The translations under genes and the position numbers were made by a program. Shown here piece by piece: positions 39,470 through 46,779 of a DNA stretch of 64,000 bases. Under the pieces are notes generated by a model, which saw only the letters and a list, made by a program, of their open reading frames with translations, was not told the origin of the DNA and did not search any database. Position 1 is the stretch's first letter. Each line of letters begins with the position of its first letter. This DNA comes from Streptomyces ruber (lineage in GTDB: Bacteria > Actinomycetota > Actinomycetes > Streptomycetales > Streptomycetaceae). The stretch is from the NCBI RefSeq assembly GCF_014648075.1, contig NZ_BMQK01000004.1:438048-502047 (forward strand), given 5' to 3'.

Positions 39470-39542
39470 GGGGCTATAGCTCAGTTGGTAGAGCGCCTGC
39501 ATGGCATGCAGGAGGTCAGGAGTTCAATTCTCCTTAGCTCCA
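39470..39542 (+). tRNA. tRNA-Ala(GGC), first copy
   Basis: A complete 73-nt cloverleaf: acceptor stem GGGGCTA with TAGCTCC, D arm, anticodon stem CCTGC/GCAGG with loop ATGGCAT (anticodon GGC), T arm AGGAG-TTCAATT-CTCCT, discriminator A. CCA is not encoded. It reads GCC, the main alanine codon at this GC content. A T-containing terminator follows. Confidence 0.97.
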
Positions 39543-39595
39543 CAGGGTCACAGATCCACAAGATCACAGTTCTACAAGATCACAGATCGATACAG

Positions 39596-40367: not shown

Positions 40368-40440
40368 GGGGCTATAGCTCAGTTGGTAGAGCGCCTGCAT
40401 GGCATGCAGGAGGTCAGGAGTTCAATTCTCCTTAGCTCCA
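40368..40440 (+). tRNA. tRNA-Ala(GGC), second copy
   Basis: Identical over all 73 nt to the copy at 39470, including the same CGCAA directly upstream. Same cloverleaf, anticodon GGC, no encoded CCA. The two copies are 0.9 kb apart in the same direction. Confidence 0.97.
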
Positions 40441-40448
40441 CAGACGAG

Positions 40449-43703: not shown

Positions 43704-43709
43704 TACCCT
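43704..43709 (+). promoter_or_regulatory. -10 of the leuS leader transcript
   Basis: TACCCT ends 6 nt before the ATG of the leader peptide at 43716, the same leaderless geometry as several other genes here. The -35 is weak. Confidence 0.45.
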
Positions 43710-43715
43710 GATCCC

Positions 43716-43754
43716 ATGCGTGCCGTACGCCTTCTGCTTAGCGAGCCGCGCTGA
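43716..43754 (+). CDS. leucine-rich leader peptide of the leuS attenuator
   Basis: A 12-codon reading frame, [12 protein letters not shown], with three consecutive leucine codons CTT-CTG-CTT. CTT is rare at this GC content, so the ribosome should pause there when charged leucyl-tRNA is scarce. The frame stops just before a stem-loop and a T-run terminator that precede leuS. Its placement, leaderless -10 and content fit a classical attenuation leader. Translation of the peptide is inferred, not shown. Confidence 0.7.
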
Positions 43755-43760
43755 TCAGTC

Positions 43761-43825
43761 CCGGCCACGGGAGAAGCGAGTGGCCGGCATCGGCGCGGCG
43801 TCCCCTCCTGTGCGAGGGGATTTTT
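43761..43825 (+). terminator. leuS attenuator: pause hairpin and T-run terminator
   Basis: An 8-bp hairpin (43761-43768 with 43780-43787) is followed by a 7-bp terminator stem (43801-43807 with 43814-43820) and TTTTT at 43821-43825, a clear intrinsic terminator in a genome where T-runs are rare. It lies 69 nt before leuS and inside its leader. The exact antiterminator pairing was not resolved by eye. Confidence 0.75.
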
Positions 43826-43893
43826 CATTTCTCGGGTGTCACGGCCCGAGCGGCACAGTCGCTGGCAGAGACGATCGATGGAGCTTGAGGATC

Positions 43894-46779
<2,886 letters not shown>

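Follow-up and report, generated by a model that had tools for sequence, protein, structure and literature searches.

A conserved leucine leader peptide and terminator before leuS of Streptomyces ruber probably form a ribosome-mediated attenuator found widely in Actinomycetes

The leucyl-tRNA synthetase gene leuS of Streptomyces ruber (43894–46779, ATG at 43894) lies in a 64,000-nt stretch of contig NZ_BMQK01000004.1 (positions 438,048 to 502,047), referred to here as the window and numbered from its first letter; the features of the leuS leader described below are all on its plus strand. Upstream of the gene, a −10 element, TACCCT (43704–43709), precedes a 12-residue leader peptide ORF (43716–43754) reading ATG CGT GCC GTA CGC CTT CTG CTT AGC GAG CCG CGC TGA, in which three adjacent Leu codons, CTT CTG CTT (43731–43739), would serve as control codons. 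The leader ATG begins 6 nt past the end of the −10 hexamer, a leaderless spacing, and the promoter of S. ruber is, judged from this spacing alone, probably leaderless. Two nested helices, P1 and P2, an intrinsic terminator and a Shine-Dalgarno-like GAGG (43887–43890) follow before leuS. The earlier note on this DNA had described a TACCCT −10 element, a 12-codon Leu frame, an 8-bp hairpin and a TTTTT terminator in this order before leuS, and we recovered each of them at the same position; CTT is also rare at this GC content, as had been remarked, accounting for 0.9% of Leu codons in the high-GC3 ORFs of the window.

Folding of the leader RNA revealed an 11-bp outer helix, P1, whose 5′ arm (43745–43755) overlaps the final leader codons and contains the leader stop codon, and whose 3′ arm (43789–43799, hereafter strand 2) abuts the terminator. 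The terminator itself (43800–43825) is composed of GTCCCCTC and GAGGGGAT (arms 43800–43807 and 43814–43821) separated by CTGTGC, with TTTTT at 43821–43825. It was flagged by a terminator scan that found 4 terminator-like sites where 0.4 would be expected for the region, one further such site lying on the minus strand. The 114-nt leader as a whole folds with z = −2.5, and 1 of 200 shuffles was equally good. P1 encloses the 8-bp hairpin that had been noticed before, P2 (43761–43787, arms 43761–43768 and 43780–43787), while the outer helix had been missed; it is P1 that corresponds to the 1:2 helix in classical attenuation. Within Streptomyces, P2 covaries (6 of 8 pairs changed on both sides), but it is absent from many relatives, and we dropped it as a functional regulatory hairpin in favor of a dispensable spacer.

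The arrangement is strongly conserved within the genus. All 110 Streptomyces loci examined carry the leader in the form MRAV[RAG]LLL[STI][EG]PR followed by a stop, with a TACCCT-like −10 element, although these loci were chosen among matches to a leader-containing query and the count is thus biased towards the leader. In a less biased count, a covariance model recovered the element in 150 of 150 Streptomycetaceae genomes and 17 of 17 genera. Most of the 110 loci preserve the leader nucleotide for nucleotide. The peptide was identical in 69 of them, the remainder showing single or few residue variants, and GCGGTACCCT or a close variant stood at equal distance from the leader in every sampled Streptomyces locus. 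Mean column identity among the Streptomyces loci reached 98.6% over the leader and 96.7% over the block formed by the P1 3′ arm and the terminator, compared with 46% upstream (−70 to −41) and 44% past the terminator, and the terminator sequence was nearly invariant in 109 Streptomyces. Loss of the Leu codons or the terminator in close relatives had been named as an outcome that would speak against attenuation; both were conserved. On these alignments, the leuS leader element is evidently not a product of chance. In two members of Streptomycetaceae other than Streptomyces (L165 and L169), P1 encloses a far longer stretch than usual, with model matches of 154 and 180 nt versus about 112, and P1 and the terminator are kept.

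Outside the family, the same covariance model, built from Streptomyces sequences only, matched 103 of 297 genomes and 43 of 114 genera of the class Actinomycetes. We fetched 60 distant loci, 40 belonging to the class and 20 to other Streptomycetaceae. In 59 of them the next gene, in the same orientation, is leuS; the remaining one is on a contig fragment that stops too early to tell. A search of named genomes for the exact pattern also returned Jiangella, Actinopolymorpha and a Pseudonocardiaceae bacterium. In an alignment of the class, which was fitted to the covariance model and therefore favors the structure, 8 of 11 P1 pairs and 6 of 7 terminator pairs varied on both sides, and none of 500 shuffles matched the values obtained for the structure as a whole. 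Such compensatory changes, which the earlier note had proposed looking for in the stems of relatives, are directly readable in the arms, where GCCGUGC/GCACGGC and GCCGCGUCG/CGACGCGGC occur beside GCCGCGC/GCGCGGC.

The synthetases downstream of the distant leaders fall into two sequence types, about 65–80% and 33–40% identical to the LeuS of the window. The attenuator thus stands before two very different types of LeuRS (L179, L181, L182, L183, L185, L186, L189 and others), which suggests either an ancient element or a synthetase gene exchanged behind a conserved leader. The position of the leader stop relative to P1 varies among the class members: some (L184, L196, L198 and L205) have an early stop just before P1 (LLLA, LLLT or LLLS directly followed by a TAG stop), and in others (L182, L185 and L189) the leader runs past P1 with no stop at the usual place. 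Class-wide spread of the leuS leader was not found in the accessible literature, where S. coelicolor, S. avermitilis and S. lividans are the species known to carry the element. By the sequence matches described here, it appears to be far more widespread in Actinomycetes than accessible papers state. Lopatovskaya et al. 2010 (Mol Biol) may treat leuS attenuators in more Actinobacteria already, in which case part of this broader range would be known. The leuS attenuator is widespread in the class and evidently old, and not a peculiarity of some Streptomyces.

Among the three control codons, the last (43737–43739) is the conserved one. It is CTT in all but one Streptomyces leader and, among the 53 distant leaders that have three adjacent Leu codons, in 50. 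It persists even in L150, L151, L169 and L207, which have lost the first, the second or both of the preceding Leu codons. We attribute the importance of this codon to the position of a ribosome waiting there, which reaches P1. When codon 8 occupies the A site, a ribosome of the usual bacterial footprint would have its front edge near 43749–43750 and overlap roughly half of the 5′ arm of P1; among the control codons, only a ribosome waiting at the last one would cover P1, which would be out of reach from codon 6. The attenuation model is sensitive to this edge, working at 43750 and not at 43747.

A stalled ribosome would act on the terminator through a second pairing. We identified a candidate antiterminator in which 43790–43798, within the P1 3′ arm, pairs with the terminator loop and its edges (43807–43815, CCTGTGCGA) as UC-G-GCGC-GG with CC-U-GUGC-GA, with two bulges. 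Folding of the unhidden RNA gave P1 plus the terminator. When the P1 5′ arm was hidden to 43750 and the RNA ended at 43814, P1 was lost and the antiterminator became the minimum-energy fold, whereas with the hidden edge at 43747 P1 still formed and the attenuation model failed. Folding in search of an antiterminator, another step proposed by the earlier note, therefore yields one at the first edge only. The antiterminator is less stable than the terminator and must therefore act kinetically. Within Streptomyces, 99% of cells are paired, and the terminator-loop changes in the 109 sequences are exclusively C-to-T or T-to-C exchanges that preserve the antiterminator pairs. Across the class, matched versus permuted strand 2/loop combinations gave p of about 0.05 and scrambled loops gave p = 0.07, and several loops (CTGAGC and short ATGC-type loops) break antiterminator pairs. 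The pairing therefore fits Streptomyces and is weakly supported class-wide, and we regard it as the least certain part of the attenuation model. A different partner for strand 2, the early leader (GCCG-UA-CGCC with GGCGCGGC), was set aside because a stalled ribosome would cover the early leader too.

We interpret the locus as a classical ribosome-mediated transcription attenuator of leuS, a reading to which we assign a probability of about 0.88. A short leader ORF with clustered Leu codons, an intrinsic terminator before leuS and a P1 helix within reach of a stalled ribosome, as in classical attenuators, were all found. In the proposed mechanism, RNA polymerase would start at or next to the leader ATG, and a ribosome would begin the leaderless ORF at once. 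When Leu-tRNA is plentiful, the ribosome would translate through the three Leu codons and be released at the stop codon, P1 would form between AUCGGCGCGGC and the final stretch of the leader (GCCGCGCUGAU), the GUCCCCUC/GAGGGGAU hairpin would follow, and transcription would stop at the U-run before leuS. When Leu-tRNA is short, the ribosome would wait with the third Leu codon (CUU) in its A site, where its front edge at about 43749–43750 would hide about half of the P1 5′ arm and leave strand 2 (43790–43798) free to pair with the terminator loop (43807–43815); the resulting antiterminator would engage the inner portion of the terminator and so allow transcription of leuS. The leader very probably raises LeuRS when leucine-tRNA is short; we infer that the ribosome stalls at CUU, that the antiterminator pairs and that the switch responds to leucine. 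The leucine leader-peptide attenuation proposed in the earlier note is thus supported, the order of promoter, leader, P1, terminator and leuS being conserved in Streptomyces and the structure covarying across the class.

The most serious alternative, which we nevertheless consider improbable, is that leader and terminator are real but the switch is not classical, the leader sensing leucine by another route such as lost coupling between translation and transcription, Rho, or a mode other than attenuation as reported for ilvB and leuA of S. coelicolor. The weak class-wide support for the antiterminator leaves room for such a mode, as do the ambiguous mutation results for the leaders of those two genes, where mutation of the control codons was without effect in the similar ilvB leader and leuA behaved anomalously (cited in PMC1262725). 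However, a strong and conserved intrinsic terminator sets leuS apart from leuA, as does a P1 helix that sits on the last codons of the leader and shows compensatory changes; this is how a classical attenuator is expected to be laid out.

It is less probable still, and by our estimate quite unlikely, that the leader answers slow translation generally, as under antibiotics or any starvation, and not leucyl-tRNA specifically. A stall of any origin around codon 8 would mask P1, and the actinobacterial whiB7 leader responds to ribosome stalling in a uORF (PMC13236596), but the conserved codons here are Leu codons, and each of the 59 distant loci that could be assessed has leuS as its downstream gene, whichever of the two LeuRS sequence types it encodes. 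We give very little credence to control by a T-box or another tRNA- or metabolite-binding riboswitch with the small ORF incidental: ileS is under T-boxes in some Actinobacteria (PMC1262725), yet the small ORF before leuS is itself conserved, and an Rfam search of the leader, in agreement with the earlier impression that no T-box is visible, found no T-box or other family at the gathering threshold or at E values up to 5, apart from two chance hits on the minus strand. The notion of a leftover or chance terminator after an untranslated ORF, for which the many hairpins formed by high-GC DNA and the additional minus-strand site could be invoked, is already contradicted by a sequence that hardly varies within the genus and by helices that covary in the class, and deserves next to no weight.

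The classical attenuator we favor has been published for this gene and peptide. Seliverstov et al. 2005 (PMC1262725, Fig. 4) predicted a classical attenuator with terminator and antiterminator hairpins before leuS in S. coelicolor and S. avermitilis, and the 2021 transcriptome of S. lividans TK24 (PMC8079986, Table 4) lists LeuL2, a leaderless ORF before leuS that encodes the identical peptide and is followed by a hairpin and a uridine stretch; the report there is of terminator-like termination, not of a leucine response. The S. ruber leader shares with LeuL2 the downstream gene, the 12 residues letter for letter and the terminator before leuS, and is leaderless by the spacing of its −10 element as LeuL2 is in S. 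lividans. It is the leuS attenuator/LeuL2 of Streptomyces, with no structural difference visible. Leader-peptide attenuation had been called less usual for a synthetase; for leuS it is a known case in Streptomyces, having been described in 2005 and 2021.

Several other systems share parts of this design. The LEU element of the actinobacterial leuA leader (LeuL1) is likewise leaderless, with a run of Leu codons before a leucine gene, but leuA has a pseudoknot and no typical intrinsic terminator, whereas leuS has P1 and a strong one; the conserved terminator and the identity of the downstream gene place the leuS leader outside the LEU element class. With the trp and leu attenuators of E. coli and Salmonella and the gamma-proteobacterial pheST attenuator, it has in common an intrinsic terminator, a leader peptide rich in the cognate amino acid and, if the candidate antiterminator forms, alternative hairpins; rare Leu codons are a further trait of leu leaders. 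In contrast to these, it is leaderless, has only three control codons and a compact P1 that holds the leader stop codon, and would use the terminator loop for its antiterminator. T-box leaders likewise regulate synthetase genes by tRNA charging, but they sense uncharged tRNA directly. The leuS leader supports the view that synthetase genes of Actinomycetes can be under leader-peptide attenuation instead of a T-box, and could serve in this class as a natural reporter for leucyl-tRNA charging and for inhibitors of LeuRS.

The codon choice of leuS is the opposite of that of its leader. All 74 Leu codons of leuS are CTG, compared with 0.59 CTG and 0.38 CTC in the ORFs of the window (p = 2e-9), and no other amino acid compared with the window ORFs was significant. 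Parts of leuS from 30 Streptomyces (550 codons each) contained 1100 CTG, 17 CTC, 3 TTG and 0 CTT codons, and in control genes CTG made up 0.37–0.80 of Leu codons. Among ten synthetase genes, which together with the window ORFs approximate genome-wide codon usage, the cognate synthetase deviated most at the codons of Leu (p = 2e-10), Ala (2e-7), Arg (5e-6) and Val (6e-4), these chi-square values being approximate owing to sparse cells. It ranked second for Thr and Ser (thrS, G000 L277; serS, G000 L278), and for Gly and Pro it was not an outlier among the ten genes. The alaS gene (G000 L283) uses GCC for 81 of 87 Ala codons and valS (G000 L220) GTC for 59 of 70 Val codons, and argS (G000 L282) is shifted to CGG where other synthetases prefer CGC.

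Rare Leu codons in leu leaders are a paradigm cited in PMC1183508, and the theory of selective isoacceptor charging presented there would explain the partition of codons between leader and gene. We considered CTT as a simple rare-tRNA codon and found this unsupported: among the long tRNAs checked, the tRNA-Leu genes comprised two GAG, one CAG, one TAA and one TAG, such that tRNA-Leu(CAG), not GAG, is the scarcer by gene number alone. It is conceivable, although we hold it at somewhat under even odds, that the switch senses tRNA-Leu(GAG) via CTT while the induced leuS mRNA depends on tRNA-Leu(CAG) via CTG and that, more generally, selection acts in Streptomyces synthetase genes on how the cognate amino acid is encoded. 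A fixed CTT in the leader versus a CTG-only leuS would then be a concrete case for selective isoacceptor charging as a design principle. Within the window, two tRNA-Ala (GGC) genes with identical Rfam scores (39470–39543 and 40368–40441) lie about 0.9 kb apart, upstream of the leuS region.
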